From the NCBI GenBank assembly GCA_022376515.1, contig WTXI01000004.1, positions 372,001 through 436,000 of the forward strand: DNA of 64,000 nucleotides, given 5' to 3'. Source of the DNA: Lactifluus volemus. Taxonomy: Eukaryota > Basidiomycota > Agaricomycetes > Russulales > Russulaceae. Below, piece by piece: positions 34,940 through 51,190 of this stretch (position 1 is its first letter; each line of letters begins with the position of its first letter). The position numbers were made by a program, and so were the translations under genes. A model generated the notes under the pieces. That model had not been told where the DNA came from. It worked only from the letters and a program-made list of their open reading frames with translations, and did not search any database.

Positions 34940-35639
34940 TTATAACACATCAGGTATATAGAACATCGAGCGATCCACCAAACGCAGGCTGACGGGACGG
35001 CCTGCTTCTTGACGTTCATTAATAAATCGGGTAAACTTGTCCAGAACATAGATTCCTCCACAATATCCAATCTCCTCAAGGTTCGGAAGGAACTGCCCTC
35101 GTAGCTGTCCATAGTCAGATGGTAAGGAATGGAAAATATTGCCGGCGAGATTATCTTTCACATAGATAGTCTTCGCGTTGGTGAATGGCTCAAGAAGTTC
35201 ACACCACTGACTTCTGTCGACACTGTTGTCAGTGTGCCACCGCGATGACGATCGACCTTTGTCTTGTAAGCTAAGTGTGAGATCCTCGACGACGGAAAGT
35301 ACGGGTGAAAGTACACGGAAGAATTCCACCGCAGACGCTACCTGCTGGTTGAGACGCATGCGGCTGATCCTTAACAGCAAGGGAGTGTCCCACTTGAAAG
35401 GGACTGCGTGTAATGAGACGCCACGATTTCCAAACATTATCTGTACAGCGGTGAATCTAAGGTTCTTGGATGTTTGCACGAATTGCAAGAGGGGTGGAAT
35501 TATAAAGGGGGGCTGATCAAAGAGATGGACATGAAGTTTGTTGAGGGAAGGGGCCCTGATCCGAGCAACAAGGAGTTCCAAATAGATGCTCGGACCACTG
35601 AAACAAAACCAGCGTAGGTTGGGAAGTGTGATCATGTTA
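34940..35639 (-). pseudogene. F-box gene H, C-terminal half
   Basis: Minus-strand sequence continuing the F-box body (MITLPNLRWFCFSGPS to SMFYIPDVL). The N-terminal half of the same gene lies 14.7 kb away at 50323-51190. Together they match copy J almost residue for residue, showing a single gene split by the transposon at 35640-50322. Confidence 0.85.
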
Positions 35640-35820
35640 TTGTATTTTGCAAATGAGTTGTCACAACCCTAAAAATAAAAAAATAAAAAACTAAAAAAAT
35701 TGAAACACATATATCTCCCTGAATTCTCAATGTATGAAGCTCGGAGGGGTACCAAATTGATCGGAAGAATTAGTAGAATAGAACTATTATGGACCGAGGA
35801 AGGAATAGAGAGAATTACAA
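35640..35820 (+). repeat. Left terminal inverted repeat of the Tc1-type element
   Basis: Matches the reverse complement of about 50140-50322. The outer 35 bp are identical; further in, ATATATCTCCC, AAGCTCGGAGGGG and GAAGAATTAGTAGAATAG blocks are shared. Confidence 0.85.
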
Positions 35821-35899
35821 AAAAATGGTTTTTTGAGTTCGGTGTAACCATTTGCCATACTCGGAGCAACACGTGCATCATTTTCTTCACCCTTTTACC

Positions 35900-38172
35900 A
35901 TGACCACGGGGAGAAAGAGGCCGAGGAATAGTGCTCCAAAGGGTTCTGCTCATTCCGTTGGCAAAAAACCAAGGCCAAGTAAGTTGTCCTCTGTTCTTAT
36001 ATATATATCCACATAACATACCCTTTTTCCTTAGGTCCTTCGGACACACCTGAGTCATCCAAGCGTTGCACGTGCACACAATGCAAGAGTCGCAAGGTCA
36101 AGTGTGTATACAAGGATGACTCCTCCGAGTGCCAGAAGTGCATTAGTTCTGGACTGGAGGGCACCTGTACATCGAGTGCTGGTGTCCTGACACCTGGGCC
36201 AGATACATCAATCCCTCAACGGCCACTGCGATCCTCTCGCCGATCTGCTTCTTCACATCACCCCCCTAAGGCCTCAGAAGATACCCATCAGCCTACAAAA
36301 CGTCAGAGCAATGATAGGATCAGGAAAAGTCCATCTGAGGGTCGAGGTGCTTCAATTTATGTTCTCACATTTACGTATGGATTTACTCAAATTTTTCTCA
36401 TTTTCAGATCACTACGTGTTACCAACAATTGCTGAGGAACCCATATCTAATGCTTCTGACCCTATAATCTCATTCCAATCCTTTATTGATCTTGAAAAGG
36501 CACAACCTCAGGCGCCCTCTGATGACGATGACGATGACTTGGATGATCTAGGCTTGGCATCAGATGACGACAATGGCTCTATTCAATCTGGATCTGAGAC
36601 AGATGGCGATAGTGTTCTAGAACCAATATCGCGACAATCTGATAGCGCTCCAAGGCGCTCAAAGTCAGGTGGTAAACATCCGACAGCCCACCACTCCCGT
36701 TCTGACTCTCAGGCACCCCAGGATCCCACTGATGATCCACGCACATGTAGTACATATTTCATTTCTTGTCCTTTTTCATTTTCCATAGCAGCTAATTTTT
36801 TTTGAAACAGAATTTGATATCTCTGCTGTCGTGACAAAAGACGATGGTAGCAATTGCCCTTTTACGATCATCTCATTCACATCACTCAAACGCTTGACGG
36901 ATACTGTTAGCCAGAAGCTTGGATGTTACCCTGGGTCCCTGAAGCTACGCTACCGCCTCGACACTGACAAGCCAAAGACCCCAGCAACATCAATTCAAAG
37001 CGTGGATGAACTCAAGATTTTCAAGGACCGTTTGCGTCTTCTCATTGTCCCCCAGCGCCTTTCAAATGGCAAACTGTCATCTCGTGTCCTCAAACCAGTG
37101 ACTGTGTGTTTCGAGAATGGATCTAACACAGATCAAAGTTCAGCTCATACAAGTCAGAGCAATAGCCGTCACAGTACCACATCAGGGGAGAAGCAGGTAT
37201 GCGATTCCATTTATGTCTATTTTTCTTTTGTTGAAAGTGCCACTGGCAGAAAGCGCGGCCATCATCAAAGCAGCCAAGTGCCCTGGGAGCTGGCACCGGC
37301 ACGTCATCCAATTCTAACCCAGTATCTAATCATACCCAGATGTCGCAGAAGGCAGTGGTTGCTGACCTGCAGCAACACTGGAAGTGCCTCCTCCACTCTA
37401 AGACCAAGGATACATTTTGCTGGCAGTCACCACAATCCAATCGCGTCTGCTATGAGCTCACTTTTACGCACCTTGGGCTATGGGCAATGGAAATAGTCTG
37501 TCCATATTTACCATCCCCCGTCAATCAATGCCATGACTAACTAGATCACAGGGCAGAGGCAATGCGACTGTTGATGACAAGCCCGAAAACTTGCATCTCC
37601 ATATCGCTCGGCCACATGCACGTGCTGGAAGCACGCCACCACAACACCACCCTGATCATGGGAACGCCCCAATAGCACCCAATGCTGCCACTACCACTGG
37701 CATGGGCTACCAAGCCGGCCCCACGCCTGCACCCCAGGCTGTTGCCGCTGTTCTTCCTCAGGCTCCTGGGCCATATGGCGGCCCATACATGACCCAACCC
37801 ATGATAGGCCAGTACTTCATGCCATATCCAGGATATCCTCAGCTTCCCATCATCAATCCTAGCATGCCATTCCCTCAGTCACCTGCTCCAAGGGCTGAAA
37901 AGAACCCGCGCGACTACCCAAATATTTGTACATGGTTTCGATACCTTGATAAGCACGAAGGACGAAACATGGATGGCATAACTTTCGAACCATTTGGCCC
38001 ATTGCTTGCAGCGCAGGGATTTGTTCGCATTACGCAACTGGTATCTGAGCATGTAGGCTTGAATGACTTGCAGCAGTGGCTTAGTATTGGGCCTGGGACG
38101 GCAGTTTTGATCAAGGAATATGCTCAAGCTGATGTGCGGGCCATAGAAATGGGGAGGTTATTCATTGGGTGA
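35900..38172 (+). CDS. Zn2Cys6-like DNA-binding protein carried by the Tc1-type element
   Basis: Predicted exons 35900-35978, 36035-36346, 36408-about 36746, about 36811-37196, 37250-37495 and 37552-38172. The N terminus is basic (MTTGRKRPRNSAPKG). Exon 2 has a fungal binuclear zinc cluster (CTQCKSRKVKC, then CQKCISSGLEGTC). An acidic Ser/Asp stretch follows, then SCPFT-like and VADLQQHWKCLLHSK..DTFCW..CYELTFTHLGLWAMEI with ordered Cys/His, a Pro/Gly-rich linker and a conserved-looking end (ICTWFRYLDKHEGRN). The splice between exons 3 and 4 is unresolved: the obvious sites would create TAA. All other joins keep frame. Likely binds DNA, perhaps the element's ends; this is inference. Confidence 0.65.
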
Positions 38173-38254
38173 TCCCCAAGGCATTTACTGACATGCTTCA
38201 TCATAAACACTTGTATCTATCACTAGCATGGACCCATGCATCAGGAAAACGTCA

Positions 38255-38450
38255 TATTTGCTTAATGTGCTTAAAGTGTGATTAGTGTGCTTAATTTCGT
38301 CATTAAGCAGGTTAAGCAAGCATTAAGAAGAATTAAGCACAAGTTAAGCAACCCTTGATTAAGCACAGTAAGCGCACCCCTGTGCTGAATTAAGCACATT
38401 TGCTGAATTAAGCGCATTCTGCTTAATTAAGCTAATTAAGCAAGATCTAA
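38255..38450. repeat. Left TTAAGC array of element 1
   Basis: More than a dozen TTAAGC or GCTTAA motifs in under 200 bp, both orientations, often as palindromic GCTTAATTAAGC. Confidence 0.85.
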
Positions 38451-38589
38451 GTAACAAGCATCTTTCACATTTTTAACTAATTTGAAATTTTCATCACAAT
38501 TTGAAATTTTCAATCACACAATTTTATAGGCATCAAAATTATATATTGGAGTAAAACTACAACATGAATATCTAAGACTAGTAATCTAC

Positions 38590-39480
38590 AGGCCTTGGTG
38601 CAACAGCCCTGGGGGGGTGGGACTGCAGGGCCACGAGGAGGCGGCGGCGGAGGCGGAGGCGGAGGCGGAGGCGCGGGAGGCACAGGAGGAGGTGCGGGAG
38701 CGCGGGAGGTGCGGGAAGCGCGGGAGGCGCGGGAGGAGGCGAGGGACAAAGGAAGAGGCACGGGGCGCGGGAAGCCCAGGAAATGCCGCGGGAGGGCAGG
38801 AGAAGCCGCGGGAGGCGCGGGACGCACAGGAGGTGCGGGGACGGCGGAGGGGACGGCGGAGGAGACGGAAGTGCGCAGGAGGCGCAGGAGGGGGGTGCAG
38901 GCAGGGGAGGCAGCGGCACAGGAGGAGGCAGAGGTGGAGGTGGAGGCGAACGAAAAAAAAAAAACGGTCAGGAAGCGTTGGGGCGAGGTAGCGTACAACA
39001 TACCGAGGAGGTGGCGCAGAAGGCGCGGCGCAGACAGCGTGCGCCGTGGACCCCTCGCAGCCCAGTGGTTCCAGGAGGATGCGAAGGAGGCGAGGGCGTG
39101 GACGCGGCGCAGGCGCAGGAGGCAGAGGATAACGTGGTGGAGGCAGAGGCAGAGGCAGAGGCAGAGGCAGAGGAGGGAGGAAGTAACAGTGAGACGCGTT
39201 TGCGCGGGGGAAGTCAAAAAAAAAGAGGGGGGGGGAATGCGGTGGCAAGGAGAACGCGGGGACGCTGAGACGTGTGGCGGCGCAAAGCGGCGAGCGGTGG
39301 CGACAGAGGCCACGAAGACGGCGGTAGAAGGAGAATATTGAGACTTGTGGCGGCGCCAGACAGCGAGCCCGCCGTGGTGGCGACAGCGGAGGGCCGAACA
39401 CAGAGACGACGGCAATAGAGGGGACAGAGGGGAAGCACGAAAACGATGGACGAAAATCAACATCGTGCAAATAAGAACAA
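38590..39480. repeat. GC-rich, purine-skewed low-complexity core of element 1
   Basis: The plus strand is about all G/A with C, including runs of GGAGGC (38640-38680) and GCAGAG (39146-39178). Very long frames in several phases (Gly/Arg/Glu-rich one way, Pro/Arg/Ser-rich the other) result from the skew and are not evidence of genes. Confidence 0.7.
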
Positions 39481-39740
39481 GCAAAAGATGCACGTGGTCG
39501 GTGCACGGGAACGACTTAGTGAAATTTTCATGACTTTGCATATTTTTCGGACTTTAATTAAATTACATAAATTACTTCCATTTGCTTAGAGTCCGTTCGG
39601 CCACACTTGTCAGCCGAAATTGTGAAAATTTCGGTAACTTCGGAGACCGGTCCGGGGGTGTCCGTTTCTTTTTCGTTTCGTCAAACTTCAGTCAAAAAGT
39701 CCTTTTTCCACTTGTTTCTTCGCTTTACTCGACTTTATTT

Positions 39741-41068
39741 ATGGCCAAGAAGTCGGATAAAGCACGGGGGATATGTTATAAACCATTTCCGAATGTAACC
39801 CAGGGCTCCCTGCATACCTACCTCGATCCCGGCCCCATCCAAGACAAAACCCAGGCGGTGTGGACCATTCAGTGCATCCTCAACTTGATATCCTTCGCAG
39901 TTCCACACCTTTCAAGTGCGGGAGATGGCCACAAGCTCACTGTTGCCAACCAGAAACTGGTAGCCACACAACTCAACAAGAAAATCGTTGTTGGGGGGAA
40001 GAAGAAGCCATCATCGGTGCAGAACAAACTCAATGATGTAAGTAGCCATTCATTTATTCTATACATGTTCTGATCTGGTATTAGCTGCTCTCCGTCTTCC
40101 AGACCGTTGATTTTCTGGAGAACAGGGCATCAGGTGTTTCGTACACACAGAGTTCTGGGTGTAACATCATGACACCGGAGGAGGATGTGACATGGGAGGC
40201 TTTGTGCCTGCAGTACCCGAATGCGTTGCCCTTCAGAAACTGCGGGTGGGAGATCTACGAGGACGTCAAGAAGCTTTGTCCAAACAAGGCAAAAGGCACC
40301 CACTCGTTTTATCCATCAAATGGGACACAAGGCACGCGTGATCCAACAACCACTGAGGCATCACAAGGTGGTGAGGAATCATCAACGTTACACCAGTTCT
40401 CACCAGAATGGGATGAAACGGCACTCAACACTGCCTTTCAGGAGAGCCAATCTGATGACGAGGTGCCATCAAACTCGATCGACACAGAAGCGGGCGATGA
40501 CTCACCGCACTGCAATAGCCCCCTGCCCCCCATCGGAGACACTTCCTCAGGAGATGATGGCATGCAGGTTGATCTAACAAAGGTGACTTCTTACCATACG
40601 TGGCATACGACTTGATGTTTTACTCATCTATTCCAGGGTGTTATCCCGATGCCCGAGAAGACCCCAAAGCCAACAAGCCGAAAAAGGAAGGACCCGCCCA
40701 CTTCTGCGCGTTCCTCAGCTCCAACGAAGCGTGCCATGCACACAGCTGAAGCACTTGCCCGTGTGGGTGACTCAGTCCTTGATTTCGGTCGTCGTTTCGA
40801 GGCCTCCACGGACAAGCTGATTGGGGCCATCAAACCAACTTATGATGCCAGTCCCATTCGACGAACCACTGCTATGTGCTTGGCTGAAAAGGAGGAGGCA
40901 TGGTTGACGTTACCTCAGCAAATCCAGTTCTCACAGCACCTCGAGACAACAACAAAGGCCGACACCTATATTGTGTGGTGTGCGAAGCCATCTCCACAAC
41001 GTAAAGTGTATGTAGCTACCATTCTGGGCATCCCCCCTCCTTCCGACTATGACAATCCATTCTTTTAA
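39741..41068 (+). CDS. Harbinger accessory DNA-binding (Myb/SANT-like) protein
   Basis: Predicted join(39741..40037, 40103..40582, 40637..41068), 402 residues, all in frame. No Myb signature is beyond doubt by eye, but position and organisation fit: Harbinger elements encode a second protein that takes the transposase into the nucleus and binds the ends. Visible: MAKKSDKARGICYKPFPN at the start, a Trp-containing helical stretch DVTWEALCLQYPNALPF followed by GWEIYEDVKKLCPN, acidic/Ser linkers, a basic TSRKRKDPP cluster, and a C-terminal EKEEAWLTLPQQIQF helix. It overlaps the transposase 3' end by 4 bp, tail to tail. Confidence 0.75.
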
Positions 41069-42524
41069 TTATCCAACTCGTTGTCACTCCCTGGGTCTAT
41101 CCCGTCTATGTCCATCTCATCTTCGTTTCCCACTCCATTCTCATCATCAGTTATATCTAGGTCATTGTCCACCATAATACCTCTATCAGATAATGTTTTC
41201 TCATACTGTTCCCACATTGCTTGTGCAATCAAAGCTCGGAGCTGTCGGCCTTCCTCTGTCTCCTCCTCTGTGAGGCGGGCATCTGCTATGGTTCCCTGTG
41301 ACTGTGACAGTTCCTCGGGATTAAGGTGCTCTCCAGGAGATGGATCATATATGTCGTTATTGACATGAACTTGTGTTGGATCTCTGTCAAGAATGAAGTT
41401 GTGGAGTGCAGCTAATGCTGCAGGAATGCGTGCTTGTAGTGCCATGTCAAACTTTGATGGGAGGACCAGTATGACCCAGCGCTTTTTGATAACACCAAAA
41501 ATACGCTCAATGACATTCCGTGCTTGTGCATGACGTAGATTGAAGAGTTCCTCTTTGTTCCTTGGTCTGAGGATATGTTAGCCGAAATGCTATATAACAA
41601 GATAAAAAATGGTACTACCGTTGACGAGCTCGACCCCATTCCTGCAGATGATAACGGACACCACGATATGGAATGAGGACACAGTCACATAGAGGAAATC
41701 CAGCATCACCAAGGTAAAAATACCCAGGTGGAACACAGAGATCGTTGATGCGAGCATCAGAATAGAGGAATGAGTCATTAACAGAACCCTCCCATCCAGT
41801 CAACAGATACAAGAACTGCATGGAGAATGTACAGATGGCAAGGATGTTTTGAGAAAGTAATCCTTTCCGATCACGTGCATTGGCTCGATCCTTCGTAGAT
41901 GGAGATGCTGCAATATGAGATCCATCTATAGCTCCAAGACATTTTTCAAAGAATGGCCAGAACTTCTGGCTGCGTTGGAGATATTGAGGAGGGGAATCCA
42001 ATGTGGATGGGAGCTTTACATATTTTGTATAGAATTCTTGTGATGAAAAGGCCATGCACATCTTTCGAAAATATCTGATATGATTTGGGGGATGAGACAG
42101 TTCAGGCTGTGAGTTGGATCTGAACTTACTACCTTGCAATGGTCTCATTTGATCGCTGGAAACGCTCACCAGCATGTCTGACACCAAGGCCAGTAACACA
42201 TATGTAGAGGAAGATAGCAAGCTGCTCCTCAACTGTAACACCATTTTTTGAATCTCCATACCCCATCCCTCGTAGCTCAATGACAAGGTCAGTAAAAACA
42301 TATAATCGAACACCAAGCTCTGTATATATACGGTTTGGATGGCCACGGATAAGCTCCCATACCCATTCTTTGCCAGTGAGCCTTGAGGTATGATATGGTT
42401 GTGACCAGTATTCAGCTGAGGTATAGAGAGCTATTGCAGTTTGAACTAGATGGACAACAGCAGCAGCACTCTGATGCCATTGTTGTATATGCTGCTGGAT
42501 GGCTGTATTCAATGGCAAGGGCAT
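41065..42524 (-). CDS. PIF/Harbinger transposase (DDE_Tnp_4, HARBI1-like)
   Basis: Predicted join(41065..41566, 41619..42074, 42133..42524), 449 residues, both introns in frame. Features in order: an N-terminal region with VRLYVFTDLVIELRGMG and a helix-turn-helix-like segment (VTVEEQLAIFLY...GERFQRS); CLGAIDGSHI with the first catalytic Asp; GWEGSVNDSFLYSD; YLGDAGFPL with the second Asp; NLRHAQARNVIERIFGVIKK with the catalytic Glu. An acidic C-terminal tail (DEMDIDGIDPGSD) follows. This is the usual length and motif order for an active HARBI1-type nuclease. Confidence 0.92.
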
Positions 42525-42689
42525 GTTGCACAGTTTAACAGATTATCATTAAGGCTCGCGATGACCTCGATTAGGCTCGATATGTGACGGATGGCCCCGG
42601 ACCGGTCTCCGAAGTTACCGAAATTTTCACAATTTTGGCTGACAAGTGTGGCCGAACGGACTCTTAGCATGACTAAAAGCCTCTTAAAA

Positions 42690-42915
42690 TTCTCTTAGTT
42701 TGCTTAAACTACTTGTTTGCTTAGTGTGATTAAAGTTTGCTTAATTTTCATTATTGGTCATAATAAAATTTGCTTAGTTGTGCTGAGTGTGGATTAATGT
42801 GATTAATGTGCTTAATGTGCTTAAGCCAAAAAAAAGAAAACTTTTATTAAGCAGAAGACAGTAATTAAGACCATTAAGCAAAGTAAGCACCATTAATTAG
42901 CGTAAGCAAATATGA
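42690..42915. repeat. Right TTAAGC array of element 1
   Basis: Counterpart of the left array, with GCTTAA, TTAAGC and variants CTTAGT/GATTAA at short, irregular spacing. Confidence 0.8.
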
Positions 42916-42928
42916 CGTTTTCCTGATG

Positions 42929-43743
42929 TGCTCCGCACGGGACCTGGGTTATCCACAGTCATTCACGTGCACCTGTTTACAATTTTGAAGCGGAGAGTGA
43001 ATTGTAAAATTTTACTGGCTCTGCTTTCTTTCGTTCTTTGTTTTCATCAGCATGAGCATCAATGAATTTTTGCTAGACGCGTTGTGGATCCTCGTCGCAT
43101 GGGACTCCGAGTGTGTGTGGTGGTCTTTCATGGGTCTCATTCTGGGTGGATTAGTTTGATGGTTGCGTTCTCATCGAGAACGCAACCATCAAACTTCTTG
43201 TGCATCTCCGGCAGGTGTAATCATTGTTGTTACCGGTGAGTGTCATTATCAATCATGTTACGTCCGACTGTCTCAGATTTGAATCTTTCTGTTCTCTGAT
43301 GCTAGGTGTAGTGGTGTCGAATTGTCGTTATCGAGGACGCCGACTGTCGCTCTGTAGGGAAGTAGAAGATTGGGGCACCGCCTGCTACAATCGGCATGTG
43401 GCCTGCTGTCGACCAATCACATTGGTTTCATTGATTTGTTGCAAGTTTGTCTGCAGAAGCCTTCCCACTACACAGCAGCCGAACATGGGATATGTTATGG
43501 TTCAAGGGCAGGTTGGTCAACCGCTGGTCATGATCATCCCAGCCCGAGCTCCACAGGCCTCCACAAAGGAGCTCTGGGAGCGACAGCACTACACCAATCT
43601 GTAAGCGCTATCCAGAACCTCAAAGAAATATATGTAAATAAAATAAAAAGTCAACGGGGAGGCGTGCTCGGTCGAATGAGACTGCGGCCTCGGGAAATGC
43701 GTGACTCAGCGTGAGCAAGCCTCAAGTAGCTACAGTTTGAAAC
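42929..43743 (+). other. Unresolved plus-strand exons inside the Tc1-type element
   Basis: A 35-residue frame at 43052-43159 (MSINEFLLDALWILVAW..., strongly hydrophobic with many Trp) ends right before the perfect hairpin. Several possible introns follow. A frame ending 43604 reads MGYVMVQGQVGQPLVMII followed by PARAPQAS and looks coding. I could not join these into one gene with confidence. No homologue recognised. Confidence 0.3.
43153..43195. other. Perfect 20-bp hairpin with 3-nt loop
   Basis: AGTTTGATGGTTGCGTTCTC, loop ATC, then the exact complement. No mismatch in 20 bp. Confidence 0.95.
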
Positions 43744-44087
43744 ATGAATGGGTCTGGGCGTCCGCCCCAACGGGGCCAGTCCGGGTCGCCCTCAGGCGAT
43801 CTCGCGGCCAAATCTCCTCCCTCCTCGGCATCCAACATCACCTCCCAAAGCGTCAATATATTCCAACACTCCCCCGTGACCACGACCGTCGAGTCTTGCA
43901 AATCAAGGTCCGCAGCATGCCTGGCAACCTTCCGGTGTCGGTTCTAAAGATGTCAGCGGAGAGCGTGGCATGTCTTCGTCATCCCTCGCCCGCTGCCCCA
44001 CCATCCTCTGGCATCTCACGTTTCTTTCGTTCGCCGACTGATAACGCTCGTTCTGGGCCTTCGCAGTACACAGAGAGTCGCGTATAG
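43744..44087 (+). other. Two overlapping Ser/Pro-rich frames, possible gag-like remnant
   Basis: 43744-43947 reads MNGSGRPPQRGQSGSPSGDL...; the continuation in another frame reads SAESVACLRHPSPAAPP and SGISRFFRSPTDNARSGPSQ, ending at 44087. Composition resembles disordered N termini of fungal retroelement gag proteins, and an integrase remnant lies nearby, but on the other strand. Unproven. Confidence 0.22.
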
Positions 44088-44239
44088 TACAGCCTGAGAC
44101 AAAGGAACACGAGAAACAAAACAAAGCCACAAAAAGATACCAAACTGGGCAGACAATAAGAAAGCGAGGCAAACTAAGACGAAACAGGAGACAAGGAGAC
44201 ACGAGATGAGTCAGAAACGAGAGAGAAGAAAGAGACACG

Positions 44240-45060
44240 CCGTGCAGCACGAGGCCGCAGAGGACGGTTCTAGGGCTGAGGCGTAAAAGCACTGTGGCCG
44301 AGGGAAATCGTGGCCCTTTCATCACGTTGATTTGGGGCGAGACGACAAGTCAGGAGCCTTGAGAATTAGCCAGGAATCACAGCGAGACAGAGGAAACGGG
44401 GGAGGAATCGCGAGAGTGGCGGGAGATGCGTACGAGTCGAGATTTCGAGGCCAGCCACGTGGTTACATCTCTTTGGGGCTTTTAGATATCGACTGTCCCC
44501 AGTCGATGCGCGTCGTCGTTGTCTTCGGAATGGTAGTCTTTGTCAACAACTATGGCAAGGTTGTTGAGGTCGAGGACACAGGTGACAGGGATGAAGGCGC
44601 GAGAGCGGGCGTGATAAGGGACAAGTCGAAAGGTGGCGTACCGAAGCTTTGAGACAGCTCCATTGATTTCGGCAAGACGATAAGAACCAGAGTGAACGAT
44701 TTTTTGCAGCCTAAGTCGGTCTCGATGGCTGAATTCCGAATGAGGACGAGGTTGCCTGGGTGAAAGGAGTGGTCACGGATGGTGTTTTGATACTGTCATT
44801 CAATGAGTCAGAACATGAAAGAAACCAAGGAAAAATGTCATGCAACGTGAGGCCACAGAGGGCGGGTCAAAGGCTGAGGCATGGTCGCATCATGGCCGAG
44901 GGCGATCGGGGCCCTTATCGTCGATAAGACGCGGTTGTAGCGATTTGGAAGCCTCAGAAAAACAGATAGAGTCACAGAGATCGATGGTAAGAGATCGAGA
45001 AGGGATCATGAGAGCGGGGAGGAAGTGTGTATGAATTGAGACTTCAAGGCCAGCCACATG
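44240..45060. repeat. Diverged direct repeat flanking a retroelement remnant
   Basis: About 225 bp at 44240-44465 (ending CCAGCCACGTG) resembles 44838-45060 (ending CCAGCCACATG), around 70% by eye. The second copy is cut at 45060 by TTAAGC-type element 2. Could be LTR-derived or a duplicated spacer. Confidence 0.4.
44482..44795 (-). pseudogene. Ty3/gypsy-type integrase C-terminal remnant
   Basis: The minus strand reads HSFHPGNLVLIRNSAIE, the characteristic segment after the integrase core in fungal Ty3/gypsy polyproteins. After a frameshift it reads SYRLAEINGAVSKLRYATFR and LVPYHARSRAFIPVTCVLDL, ending at 44482. The link between the blocks is partly deleted. No reverse transcriptase or LTR pair is visible. 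Relic of an old insertion. Confidence 0.65.
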
Positions 45061-45074
45061 CATCAGCAATTGTC

Positions 45075-45330
45075 CATGTTGCTTAATGTGTGCTTAACGT
45101 GCTTATTAAGCACGTTAAGCACAAATTAAGCACAAAACGATTAAGCAGGTTAACGCCACCCCGGTGCTTAATTAAGCACCATTCTGCTTAATTAAGCACA
45201 TGTTGTGCTTAATTGTGCTTAATTAAGCACAATATTAAGCAAAATTCCAAGAAGTTCAATTACCTTTTAAAGCAGCACTAAGCATCAAATTAAGCACATG
45301 TAAGCAATCTAAGCACAACATTAAGCAGTT
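45075..45330. repeat. Left TTAAGC array of element 2
   Basis: Very dense GCTTAA/TTAAGC motifs including GCTTAATTAAGCAC repeated three times within 70 bp. Confidence 0.85.
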
Positions 45331-45419
45331 TCAAGCACACAGAAGTATCAGGTAAAATTCAATCAATGATGAGCATAAAATAGTATATTCAGTCAACTAT
45401 ACTACAACATTAGTACACT

Positions 45420-47640
45420 ATCTATACTCTATCTGAGTGTGCATATGGCCTCTTCTAATCCACCAGCACCACCAGGCAATTGACAATGGAGGAGCAGTTG
45501 GCCACAGAGGCACTGCAGAGTCCCATGCAGGACCACCATGGGGAGGGGGGGGGATGGTATGCATGCCACCAACTGATGCCTCCTGGGCTGTGCTGCCGCC
45601 TTTGGCTTGTTCCTACTATGCATGTGGAGGTACCCCTCGAGGAGGGCTGTGTTGCGCACCTATACAGATGGATCAGGAGGTATGGATTCATGTTCCTCTT
45701 CAGAAACCACGGAACGAGCAATCGGGACAAGTGATGAGGAGCCAGGTGAATGCAAGCGATTCTGCGGAGCGTCATGAGGAAGGAGAGGATCGTCGAGACC
45801 AGATGATCTAGGTCAGGAATCTACACCAAACGGATTAGAGAACCCGGCAGGGTATCACTCCACTGGAGAAGTGTTGTGATCCCCAGGAGCGATCGGAGGT
45901 AAATCTAAATTGTAAAGGAAGTTCATTTTAGAAGGATCGACGGCGATCATACCAAGGAAAGGTGCGCACCTTGGGTTGGCAGCACCCCCGTTACTTCTTG
46001 TAACGACTCTGCACGAGTGTCCCACTGCTCCCAACAAGAAGAACTAGCTGCAGAACCAGCGGTACTCGGTCTTCGATCGGCTGAAAATGAGGCAGAGCTC
46101 GGGGAGGGTAAGACGGAAGGGAGACCATACTGGAAGCTCTGACGGTGGGATTGCCGCCACTGTGGGTAGCGCCGTTTGGCTGGATTTGTCAAGGCATAGT
46201 GAGAGGGGGGTTGTGCTGCTACGGCTGATCGTATGTTGGGATCGGAAAGATGGCGGCTAAGCGAACCGGGGTGTTGCTGGACAGGGAACGACTGTCGGGA
46301 CGAAGGGCTACCGCTGGGAGGGTGAAGGAAGCGTGCATGACGCGTCGGATCGTTGAGGGTCCCGGTATGAGATGGGGAAAATGTCGACCTAGAGATAGTG
46401 CTCGGAGCCGCGAGGCTAGAGGAAGCATCGCCGGGCTGAGAGACATCGGCGGAGGTAGTGGGGTTGGCTAGCCAAGGCTCTACGAGAGGGTCCTCGCGCT
46501 GATCCTGCGAACGACGTCCCCAGGCATGAGGCTAAACAGTAGTCCCTAATGACTAAGTGTGAACCGGCGTACACGACATGAGTCAGCTGAGCCCAGCGTG
46601 CTTCTGTGGTCTGCGGAAATTACCTTCGTCTTTACGAGGCCGGGATCAACGAAAGACAGTGTCCAGGTGAGTACCTACGATTAAAGATAGCAATGTAAAG
46701 TCCGATTATGTGGTTTCAACGACGCACGCGAGTAATGCATAAGTGGATAATATAAAACATACCTGACATACCAAAGCTTTTCCTTGATCTCCGGAATGGC
46801 CTCAAAGGGCCGTGCGGTTGAATGCGCACCCGCGCATGAGCAGGAGCTTGATTAGATACTGCGTGACGTCCCGCCCAGCAATATCGAGTCGCCTCATGAG
46901 ATGGAGTAACGCAAAGCCGTCATATACCGCAACGATATACATCATGCTGTCGACGACAACGCCGGCCGTCAAGCCTGCAGAAGTTAATCCTCAACATTGG
47001 CGCTGCTCTCCTTTCTTTTTGCGAGCCCTCCTCCTGCCGGCATCTCCATGACAGCCTCTGCCAAAAGCGAGGCAGCAACGGAAAAGACTCCGACGAAAGC
47101 CCTTTCTGTATGCACATGGTGACGCGGCCGAGGTAGGAATGGGGAGGACGGGGAGAAAAAGGTAGTCGAACGCACCTTGCGCATAAAGCGTCAGCACTGG
47201 GGAACCATCGCACCGAGACGGCGCCCTACGTGATCATGTGAAAGTAACCGAACGGAAGAAGATTGCGCCCGATCCATGCTGTCTCCGCGTGCAGTCCGAA
47301 CAGACATAGTGTAGCAGAACGATCGACGAGGCTCAGTTTGCAGTTTGTTATCTGAGCCCACAGGATTTCACAGAGGCAAACTTACCTTGAGGCCATCGGT
47401 GCCAGTGAGTCAGTGACCCCCCCCCCCTTCTTCCCTTCTTTACCAAGCTCGTCTTCAACGGCACGTCGGAGAGCATAGGCAATTCTGTCCCTGGCTGGTG
47501 CGAGAACGTCAGTAGGCAATAGTTGAGTCTGGAGAAGCCAAAGGGCAAGTGCGCAAGTCGAGTGGTCAACAGAGTGGCGGCGCAGGAGGAGTTGGGGCCG
47601 GCACCGTGACAGTGTGAACCCTCAGTGCCAGTGGGTAAAG
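45420..47640. other. Interior of TTAAGC-type element 2, no confident gene
   Basis: GC-balanced sequence with frames of 60-140 codons on both strands, none with a recognisable domain, good start context and splice pattern together. A C-run of 11 occurs at 47416-47426. Confidence 0.4.
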
Positions 47641-48029
47641 TGAGGAATACAAAAAAGTTAGTATAAGAAGTCAAAAGAAAAAGAAAAAACGCACCAAGGA
47701 CTAGACAAAGGCAGTCGCGGCGACAAGGGGAAGGCGGGAACGCTAAGACATTGCACGTGGTGCTAGGCACTTCAGGCCAAAACAGAAACCTGAGGTGGTG
47801 CCAGACAGCGAGAGATGGTAGAGACAGATGAGGCTAGGACATGGAGAAGGCGACACGGAGACGGAGGGGAGACAGGAGGCAACAGGTGGTTGAAGATAAA
47901 TGAGGCACGAAAATGCTAAGGCACGAAAGTCAACACCGGCATCATGCCAACAAGAATAAACAAACAACTTAGCAAAATTTTCACAAGTTGCAACATTTTC
48001 GGATTAGTTAAATTATGTAAATTACATTT

Positions 48030-48275
48030 GTTTGCTTAGCACAATTAAAAAACCCTTAAAATTTCATTACTTGCTTAAATATCTTAAGTGTGCTTAATGT
48101 CAGTCTTAATTGTGCTGTTCATACTGAGCATGCTTAATGCCAGTCTTAATTGTGCTGAGCATGTTGAGCCTGCTTAAGTTGCTTAATTGTGCTTAAACAA
48201 AAATTTCATCAAGCAAAATTAAGCAAAAAGGTAAATTTAAGACCATTAAGACTACTAATCACCATTAAGCAACAG
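48030..48275. repeat. Right TTAAGC array of element 2
   Basis: GCTTAA/TTAAGC motifs, including two tandem-like ATGTCAGTCTTAATTGTGCT-type units about 45 bp apart (near 48100 and 48140). Confidence 0.8.
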
Positions 48276-48290
48276 GGACAATTGCTGATG

Positions 48291-48766
48291 TGGCCGTCCT
48301 TACACCAGCAGTGTACGCAGGGCAGAAGCGCCACTTCACTCTGTGCATCCCATCTGCACTGTCCGCGGCCACACCTGTGTCAGCAGCAACATCCAGCAAC
48401 TCTATGTCATCACCATCAGCGGCGCACCTACTGTCCTTTGTTCCCCTTGAGGTGTTACCGTTCCTGCCACTCGGATCCAGAATCTGGCTTTGACCTTCCT
48501 CTTCCTTGGGGACCACACTGAGCATGAGCATTGGAGGGACACAGGGGTGTTCATGAGGTGCCTCCGGTCATGACCGGTCAGGTGCACAACCCCACGCCGA
48601 CCGATGAGAGCCACCCGACGGTGGCTGCAACAAAAAGCCAAGATAATAGATAGATGACATCACCTTTGGCCAGGAACCGGAGCGCAAACTGCCATATTGG
48701 GTAGGGTAAGTGTGGGTCCTGGAACAACAACTCATATTACATCTGCAAGCATTTACATACTAGTCA
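48291..48766. other. Spacer downstream of Tc1-type transposase
   Basis: Open for 67 codons on plus and 88 on minus, with no recognisable motif. Probably part of the original Tc1-type element body. Confidence 0.4.
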
Positions 48767-49939
48767 CTAGATATAACCACAATGCCTGTACCAGCCATGA
48801 ATGTCGGTGAGCGTGATGGTGTACAGAGTTCCAAGAAGGCAATAGTATATGTCAGCAAATGACATGGTTGTCAAGGTGAGGCGAGTGTAGTCCCCTTGGC
48901 GGCGAAGTTTATACTTCATACAAGAGAATGCAAGCTCAATGGGGTTGTAATCAGGAGAATATGGTGGCAAGAATTCACACCGCATACCCCTTACTTGGCC
49001 ATCAGCATGAATACAAGGGATAGCTATACTTGTGCACGCACCAAGAATGAATCAATTCTTGAATAAAAGAGGTCTTGTGAATGCGGCAATTGTCCATGAC
49101 AATGACTGAGTTTGGTCCAGGGAAGGGTTGCATGTGGTCAAGAAGGTTCTGGATGAACAACGCAAATGTGTCAGAGCGAAAGGATCCTTCTACTATTTCA
49201 CAGTGTAGGAATCCATCCAGTGAGATGGCTGGGAGCACTGAAAATCTAAAAAAGGGTGAGTAGTAGAGTTGTGTAAACAGCATGTCACTCACCGCTTTCC
49301 ACGTACAAAGAATGCCTTTCGTTGTGCTGGTAACCCCCGAATGGCCCACGCATGCCCACGATATGTTGTCCTGCGATCAACTGAGCTTTCATCAACAAAC
49401 ACCAGCTGGTTAGCATGGTATTTGCTTATGCGTGTGACATAGTCTACACGCTTCTCTGCAGAGCGTTCTGCTGCGATGCGTGTTATCTACAAGAGGAATT
49501 AGTCATTTTCTTCATCTGATACAGGGTACTATACTCACCTTCTTCATTGTAAATCCTCCACGACAAAGCATGCGCCAGATAGTGGATTTTGAAACATCCT
49601 TGCCACATGTGATAGACAGCATCTCCTGGAGTTCGTCAAGGTACATGTCTGGGTTATTTCGGATGGCACCAAAGAGAAACTAAATAACCATTAGTCCCTG
49701 GATGTAATAGAGAAGGTGTAATTACTTACCTCCAAGTCCACATCACGTAGGTGAACGCCCTTCTTTTGATGCTCCTTCTCTTCTTCAATTGTGCCATACT
49801 GGTTAAAATAGTTGAGTATTTGGCATACAGACCGCTTTGAAATCCCAGTATAAGTTGCAATAGCTTCTGGCTTCATGTCTAATGAGAGTCGAATAACAAT
49901 GTACCGGACATCAGGGGAGATTGTGTTGCCGCGTGTCAT
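48767..49939 (-). CDS. Tc1/mariner transposase, DD34E
   Basis: Predicted join(48767..48989, 49042..49245, 49293..49486, 49539..49679, 49730..49939), 323 residues; four introns of 46-52 bp all keep frame. The start is ATG 49939 (MTRGNTISPDVRYIVIRLSL). The N-terminal helix-turn-helix region (MKPEAIATYTGISKRSVCQI) binds the repeats. Catalytic triad: VFVDESS, VIVMDNCRIHK and SPDYNPIE, with 34 residues between the second Asp and the Glu, the Tc1-type spacing. The length is normal and no stop is seen, so it may be functional. It starts about 380 bp inside the right terminal repeat. Confidence 0.92.
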
Positions 49940-50139
49940 GGGAGAGGAGAACAAAGGGGTTTGAGCGCCAATTGCCTCATGGGTCGAAAAATGATCACAC
50001 AATGTAACAAGGCTCCATCGGTACCTTCAGTTACAGAAAAGGGATATTATCTTTACATGGTTATGACATATTAGGGGTGTTATTGTCAAATATGAAGGAG
50101 TAGAGGAGGTCTGTATTCTGACATCCACTCCAAAAATCA

Positions 50140-50322
50140 GAAAATTTCAACTCTCATTTCCCTTCCTCGGTCCATGTTAGATCTATTCTACTAATTCTTC
50201 CGATCAATTTGGCACCCCTCCGAGCTTCATATGTTGAGAATTCGGGGAGATATATGCATTTCAAAATTTATGATTTATTTTTTTATTTTTTAGGGTTGTG
50301 ACAACTCATTTGCAAAATACAA
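50140..50322 (-). repeat. Right terminal inverted repeat of the Tc1-type element
   Basis: Reverse complement of the left repeat; the outer 35 bp are exact. Confidence 0.85.
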
Positions 50323-51190
50323 TAAGGGTCTGGTGACGCTGCCTTTCAATATCATGAATGGAAAAGGGGGGACAAAATTCAATGAACAGATCCTCCAGCT
50401 GGGAAAGAAGCGAAAGTCCAAGTATATAACTCGGAGTGAAATGGGCGGACTCGGATGCCTCGAGTGAGCGAAGGGAGAGAGTAACGAGTCCCGTAGGAGT
50501 AGTTGTGAGTAAGGGCGATCCAATTGGAAGGGAAACCATCACTAGTGTGATATGGCGTAGATTGGGGGCTTGAAACGTTACAGGAAGGGCCACCTCGGCC
50601 CGGGGAGAAGAATCGATATACATGCGCTCCAGAACGGGGAATTGATCATCCATAACCCTGAAGAACTTCTCCATATTGTCATGGCAAAGGTAGATATGAC
50701 GCACGCGATCACGATGTGAAAGTGCGAGAAATATACCCGATTCATCTTCTGGTTTTATATCCCAACCAACTTCATAAGAGATGGTGAGTGGTAGTGGTGG
50801 TGAATGTGCGAGCATGTCTGCTACAGGCACACCAACGGTGCAGAACAGATGAAGATCGAGCCGGCATGGTGATTCAAGAATAAGATTTCGCCATAGTCGA
50901 CAAACATGTGCCAGTTTGTACCACCATTGGCGGTACGAAATAGCGACCGCTCCATTTTCATCGTAATAGTCGTCCGGATCTGGCAGCCGATAAAGGTCAA
51001 ATATGTTGAGAAGCACGTCATCATTCAGGATATGGATAGATGGAGGTGATCTATTGCCACGGAGCCCTTTTAATTTGCAAGTTTGTCAACAGAATGAACA
51101 GATCAGGGACACAAATATTTGGAACTCACGACCGGCGGCGAGCCTTCTAATGAAGGAAGGATAACTTGGGGTCAAGCAGAAAGCAGGCAT
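50323..51190 (-). pseudogene. F-box gene H, N-terminal half
   Basis: Join(50323..51066, 51130..51190): leader MPAFCLTPSYPSFIRRLAAG, intron GTGAGT to AAAAG, F-box HILNDDVLLNIFDLYRLPDP and WWYKLAHVCRLWRNLILES. The body breaks at the Tc1-type insertion, after ...ERQRHQTL. It is nearly identical to copy J over this part, so the gene was probably whole until a recent insertion. As it stands it could encode a truncated F-box protein of about 250 residues ending in element sequence. Confidence 0.85.

Follow-up and report, generated by a model that had tools for sequence, protein, structure and literature searches.

A TA-flanked Tc1-type transposon of Lactifluus volemus in which a DD34E transposase gene is accompanied by a gene for a Zn2Cys6 protein

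In textbooks, Tc1/mariner elements stand for transposition by a single protein, a simplicity thought to underlie both their movement across species and their use as gene tools. A locus in the basidiomycete Lactifluus volemus (Russulales) raises the question of whether an element of this superfamily can also be built from two genes. The window analysed here, 64,000 nucleotides of contig WTXI01000004.1 (assembly GCA_022376515.1, positions 372,001 to 436,000 of the forward strand), contains at 35640-50322 a TA-flanked Tc1-type (DD34E) transposon. Between its ends lie a transposase gene and a second gene, designated ZC, which codes for a protein with a fungal binuclear zinc cluster (Zn2Cys6); both genes occupy the positions, and the convergent order, that were given in a first-pass annotation of this DNA. 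The principal features of the element are as follows.

35638..35639, left copy of the TA target-site duplication, matched by the right copy
35640..35812, + strand, left terminal inverted repeat, about 84-88% identical overall to the right repeat
35742..35796, + strand, inner block of the left end, with CGG at 35742-35744, CGG at 35762-35764 and CCG at 35794-35796
35900..38172, + strand, ZC gene (Zn2Cys6 protein, 661 amino acids), six exons at 35900-35978, 36035-36346 (Zn2Cys6 cluster), 36408-36749, 36811-37196 (PB1-like domain), 37250-37495 (conserved Cys/His region) and 37552-38172
48767..49939, - strand, DD34E Tc1-type transposase gene (323 amino acids), five exons at 49939-49730, 49679-49539, 49486-49293, 49245-49042 and 48989-48767
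50150..50322, - strand, right terminal inverted repeat
50168..50222, - strand, inner block of the right end, with CGG at 50222-50220, CGG at 50202-50200 and CCG at 50170-50168
50323..50324, right copy of the TA target-site duplication

That the element is a real insertion follows from its host flanks, which, when joined without the element, restore a single open F-box-like frame spanning the insertion site. The TA duplication noted in the first-pass annotation is present on both sides (TA is the general target of Tc1 elements), and together with the terminal inverted repeats it provides the structural hallmarks of Tc1/mariner. The repeats had been described as perfect, which holds for the first 36 bp but not beyond, where the longer alignment has 220 of 261 positions identical. 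A spliced, intact-looking DD34E transposase and a multi-exon zinc-cluster protein had also been proposed, and both are recovered, as five- and six-exon models with zero stops or frameshifts. The transposase matches Pfam DDE_3 with an expectation value (E) of 1.9e-28, carries the catalytic residues D149 (assigned as the first catalytic D from its motif), D233 and E268, the last two separated by 34 residues, and has an N-terminal helix-turn-helix (HTH_23, E 9.8e-08, above the cut-off; HTH_Tnp_Tc3_2, E 2.1e-05, below it). As its transposase is of the DDE_3 type, the outer element lacks the DDE_Tnp_4 domain by which PIF/Harbinger elements are recognized.

Do the two genes travel together? In the one L. 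volemus assembly searched (62.4 Mb, the window being the copy on C334), a transposase exon gave 16 matches, comprising seven of family A, two of a family B (C168 and C614) and seven weaker ones (C246, C179, C35, C624, C390, C212 and C244) that presumably represent other Tc1-type families. The C-terminal exon of ZC gave 12 matches at nine places, and its PB1 exon nine matches at the identical nine places. Both genes are found at eight places (C334, C5, C134a, C134b, C118, C379, C168 and C614); ZC thus accompanies the transposase in every one of the eight copies found with a full-length transposase gene, and the single-gene organization that is typical, if not strictly defining, of Tc1/mariner is absent from all of them. 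Both ends enclose both genes in six of the eight, the left end of C134a being off the contig and C614 being rearranged. The five family-A places other than the window (C5, C134a, C134b, C118 and C379) have unrelated flanks, with TA at both ends of four and at the one end present in C134a. The ninth ZC place, C599, is an incomplete copy at the beginning of its contig, so that ZC occurs only in element copies or fragments, and no host (non-element) copy was found in this genome among the nine places checked. The first-pass annotation had named two findings that would refute its reading, other copies carrying only the transposase, or ZC alone at orthologous non-transposon loci as a chance passenger here; in this one genome the copies do not refute it, although partial one-gene copies exist.

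Family B is deeply diverged from family A, with identities over the matched parts of 50-57% for the transposase, 34-35% for the ZC C-terminal exon and 40-43% for the PB1 exon. Its ends start TTGTTGTTTTCAYGTGACC after TA. Allowing up to three mismatches, this pattern gives five matches against five in a backward control, but the real five have 0-1 mismatch, and the surrounding DNA aligns at 88-100% over 258 to 339 bp. In C168, ends at 225527 (+) and 240350 (-) enclose both genes; the protein match covers transposase residues 7-293 of 323, the DNA matches that of C614 at 96% across the whole gene, and a nested insertion is present that C614 lacks. C614 has one end at 79685 and the other at 87961 within an inverted segment, and its ZC gene is split between 83151-83532 (-) and 93136-93665 (+). 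Both family-B transposases contain stops inside the match. Two side observations concern these copies: the C614 inversion (83151-93665; L051, L055) breaks inside ZC, with halves that overlap by 12 bp of the query, and the roughly 3 kb between the left end and the ZC gene of C168 (225527-228600), seen only in part, could hold another gene.

ZC evolves under purifying selection. Between subfamilies, its ratio of nonsynonymous to synonymous substitution rates (dN/dS) is 0.35-0.40, falling to 0.08-0.19 in the two most conserved regions; within A1 it is 0.38-0.75 on few changes, and within A2, whose copies carry ZC stops, 0.83-0.95. Because the genes co-occur in all eight copies, in two diverged families, with ZC under such selection, a two-gene Tc1-type element is strongly supported. 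The retention of ZC alongside every full-length transposase suggests, moreover, that it probably helps the element to move or to be expressed. Synonymous divergence between subfamilies was observed to be higher for ZC (0.55-0.63) than for the transposase (0.31-0.34), which may reflect recombination of element halves between lineages or differing codon constraint.

Other copies show further variation. The C134a (L032) transposase has its second catalytic Asp replaced by Asn, and in the C5 copy a GC-rich insertion of 1.5 kb, apparently accompanied by an 8-bp duplication, lies right at the 3' end of the transposase gene (L021:5931-7469). The copy L026 (C175:35775-43696) has no ZC or transposase match and holds a 1502-amino-acid open frame that by eye looks like a Copia-type retrotransposon. 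On C207, two 1.8-kb short copies (L024, L025) lie about 10 kb apart in 3-kb stretches 99.97% alike, either a tandem duplication or an assembly duplicate; a short C207 copy has TG at its right end.

What kind of protein is ZC? The deposited L. volemus protein BGW80DRAFT_1248676 (665 amino acids) is 99% identical to the ZC model, the sole difference being four residues at the exon 4/5 junction. The window cluster, C-x2-C-x6-C-x8-C-x2-C-x8-C, fits the pattern C-x2-C-x6-C-x5-12-C-x2-C-x6-8-C; the full pattern is present also in L021, L023 and L027, and C134b has one Cys replaced. With E values of up to 1 allowed, Pfam Zn_clus recognizes four of the 14 sequences in alignment A2, the best of them at E 6.1e-05. 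Exon 4 has a predicted PB1 fold. Pfam finds in ZC neither a fungal transcription-factor middle domain nor a kinase; a SAM-like fold suspected by eye at the C-terminus was dropped, as the model there has a mean predicted local distance difference test (pLDDT) score of 46. Searches beyond the genome, in which 7985 and 7988 candidates were scored, returned only three L. volemus proteins and 11 fragments bearing the source tags jgi, lgn and ena, probably metagenomic. As seven of these fragments (P0127-P0132 and P0134) widen the PB1 exon family past the L. volemus copies, ZC probably occurs outside this genome as well. Among 26 pattern matches in viral contigs, no relative of ZC was confirmed.

The ends of the element offer a candidate target for this protein, CGG triplets being established half-sites of Zn2Cys6 proteins. 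In family-A ends the inner block has the layout CGG-N17-CGG-N29-CCG; each triplet is present in 26 of 29 ends and all three in 23. These 29 are 28 of the 33 ends found plus a second C24 end; they include gene-less 0.75-kb and 1.8-kb copies and exclude one of the two near-identical C207 copies (two ends) and the single ends of C126, C120 and C180. Identity among seven representative ends is 21/28 in the CGG-CGG segment, 19/30 in the terminal 30 bp and 9/13 in the CCG segment, against 11/39 in the A-rich spacer and 8/39 in the stretch beyond. The block lies some 103-157 bp in from either end, upstream of the start codons at 35900 and 49939, and is also present in the gene-less 0.75-kb copies C613, C93, C611 and C24. 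In Sleeping Beauty, a transposase-binding repeat lies internal to the terminal one; here, in a weak test of three ends, the similarity of the inner to the terminal block did not exceed that of shuffled sequence.

The best explanation, given about an even chance of being right, is that ZC serves the element as an accessory protein of its own, binding the ends and aiding transposition, transcription or both. The DD34E transposase, judging from its motif and the TA duplications, would cut and paste at TA, and ZC would be retained for the benefit of the element itself. Its zinc cluster would contact the CGG-N17-CGG-N29-CCG block within each end, and its PB1-like domain would link ZC molecules to one another, or ZC to some other partner, across both ends, so that the ends could be paired or the transposase loaded. 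Bound upstream of both start codons, ZC may also switch on both genes; by analogy with TnpA of En/Spm, cofactor and transcription-control roles could coexist. A bolder version is less likely than not: in an obligate two-protein fungal Tc1/mariner system, these sites would be read and the ends bridged for the transposase by a Zn2Cys6-PB1 protein, and ends and zinc cluster would co-evolve, family B having lost both.

Several observations weigh against an end-binding accessory protein. On the side of the protein, the window ZC scores 16 bits with Zn_clus, for which the cut-off is 21 bits; Pfam PB1 has zero matches in ZC at E up to 1, and the best Foldseek match, at E 2.1e-03, falls short of the 0.001 level. 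On the side of the DNA, positions 70-100, just outside the CGG block, are about equally conserved (19/31), and conservation of the block could reflect transposase binding instead. The co-occurrence was examined in one genome, where no ZC match is present on the contigs of the seven weaker transposase matches, one of which (C390) is only a fragment of residues 1-52 beside another insertion; C589, with no ZC found, has a transposase that ends after codon 284, and C599 has ZC and the middle of the element with no transposase match on its 165,731-bp contig. Family B departs from the arrangement in three respects. In C168 both genes lie on one strand, so that gene orientation is not conserved between families; the family-B ZC keeps C-x2-C-x6-C and lacks the second half of the cluster, which is therefore not universal; and the one aligned family-B end has no CGG sites at the corresponding place. 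Joint loss of cluster and CGG sites would fit the proposed contact, as a correlation over two families.

A tenable but less probable alternative is that ZC acts outside cut-and-paste altogether, as a regulator of the element's own transcription (activator, repressor or anti-silencing factor), and that the CGG sites are bound since the ends are promoters of both genes. Zn2Cys6 proteins are generally transcription factors, and the position of the blocks ahead of both start codons is what this alternative would predict. Their retention in the gene-less 0.75-kb copies, which have no promoter to control, is instead as for a movement site, although young gene-less copies could have merely inherited the block. 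The reading of the first-pass annotation is supported in part: the two-gene element is strongly supported and the Harbinger-like helper role is plausible, while ZC may instead be a regulator.

It is improbable that ZC is cargo, a gene taken up from the host that either serves the host or makes no difference to the element, even though other DNA transposons are known to capture genes and C599 keeps ZC without a transposase. No host source was found in this genome, all nine PB1-exon places being element copies or C599; ZC is retained in two families at about 35% ZC identity, with the gene orientation changed; and it is under purifying selection between subfamilies, while the A2 copies with ZC stops drift. 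The related suggestion of the first-pass annotation, a transposon mobilizing a transcription factor, is disfavoured by this distribution of ZC and by the lack of a Pfam middle domain. Nested insertions are plentiful in the window, and chance adjacency of two unrelated repeats might in principle mimic one element; this is extremely improbable, as the pair of genes recurs at several sites within the same ends, next to TA and in unrelated surroundings, and occurs together once more in family B.

The first-pass annotation had called the element large, and its span is indeed 14.7 kb; its size is inflated by insertions, however, and the remaining features of the locus are listed here.

34943..35637, - strand, 3' part of the interrupted F-box-like host gene
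38240..42928, nested insertion 1, TTAAGC-rich, with terminal inverted repeat CATCAGGAAAACGTCAT and an apparent 2-bp TG duplication, absent in close copies
39583..42669, PIF/Harbinger-type element within nested insertion 1, with a DDE_Tnp_4 transposase on the - strand
42929..45060, element middle, common to close copies
45061..48290, nested insertion 2, a TTAAGC-rich element, absent in close copies
50325..51085, - strand, 5' part of the interrupted F-box-like host gene (F-box-like PF12937, E 0.0033, below the cut-off)

The close copies C5 (L021) and C134a (L032) lack 38240-42928 and 45061-48290 and each hold further insertions absent from the window copy. The unit common to them (35637-38239, 42929-45060 and 48291-50325) amounts to 6770 bp, and as part of the middle (44090-45060) also matches dispersed repeats, the ancestral element may have been smaller still. 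Nesting is triple, with a PIF/Harbinger element in a TTAAGC-rich element in the two-gene Tc1 element. The innermost has DDE_Tnp_4 matches at E 4.4e-09 and 8.5e-07; its + strand open frames, which have no Pfam match, may be its second gene. A third gene in the middle of the Tc1 element was considered and rejected, the open reading frame (ORF) at 43221-43601 having no Pfam match and 44090-45060 being largely dispersed repeat, and no RNA family reaches its gathering score across 35000-51000.

The statement in the first-pass annotation that Tc1/mariner elements normally carry one gene has a published exception in the ciliate elements TBE and Tec (excerpted text of PMC7325037 and PMC4724952). As these excerpts describe it, TBE of Oxytricha encodes a 42 kD transposase, a 22 kD ORF and a 57 kD zinc-finger/kinase ORF; all three have dN/dS well below 1, the 57 kD gene is said to have evolved rapidly (PMC4724952, PMC7325037), and the function of the zinc-finger ORF is given as unknown (PMC4724952). 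By description, TBE thus resembles the window element in combining, within terminal repeats, a DD34E Tc1/mariner transposase with an extra zinc-finger ORF under purifying selection, and differs in having three ORFs and a kinase domain, whereas the window element has two identified genes, no Pfam kinase, and a ZC of Zn2Cys6 and PB1-like composition. The fungal element is presumably independent of TBE in origin.

Among fungi, single-gene Tc1 elements and Tc1-OP1 of yeast share the Tc1 transposase and terminal repeats and have one ORF; Tc1-OP1, at 5,659 bp, was called the largest Tc1/mariner reported as of 2023 in the excerpted text of PMC9977792, compared with a shared unit of 6.8 kb and two genes here. 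Fungal transposons with TET/JBP dioxygenases are another accessory-gene case (PMC12730594, the main text of which, as excerpted, does not contain the words mariner and Tc1). No fungal two-gene Tc1 was recognized in a literature search of titles and abstract beginnings, with subscription journals mostly outside its reach, and no literature linking L. volemus with transposable elements was found.

Two other superfamilies provide functional parallels. PIF/Harbinger elements likewise keep a transposase together with an accessory gene of DNA-binding type, but belong to the DDE_Tnp_4 superfamily and differ in target duplication and accessory fold, their accessory protein being Myb-like. Closest to the role proposed for ZC is En/Spm, which encodes TnpA and TnpD and whose accessory protein recognizes motifs close to the ends and has a part in both transposition and regulation; En/Spm is a CACTA element, with unrelated proteins and ends. 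That a second gene of DNA-binding type has been kept through deep divergence suggests that the Tc1/mariner superfamily can turn two-component, as Harbinger and En/Spm have, and the fungal element offers a comparison with the ciliate TBE.

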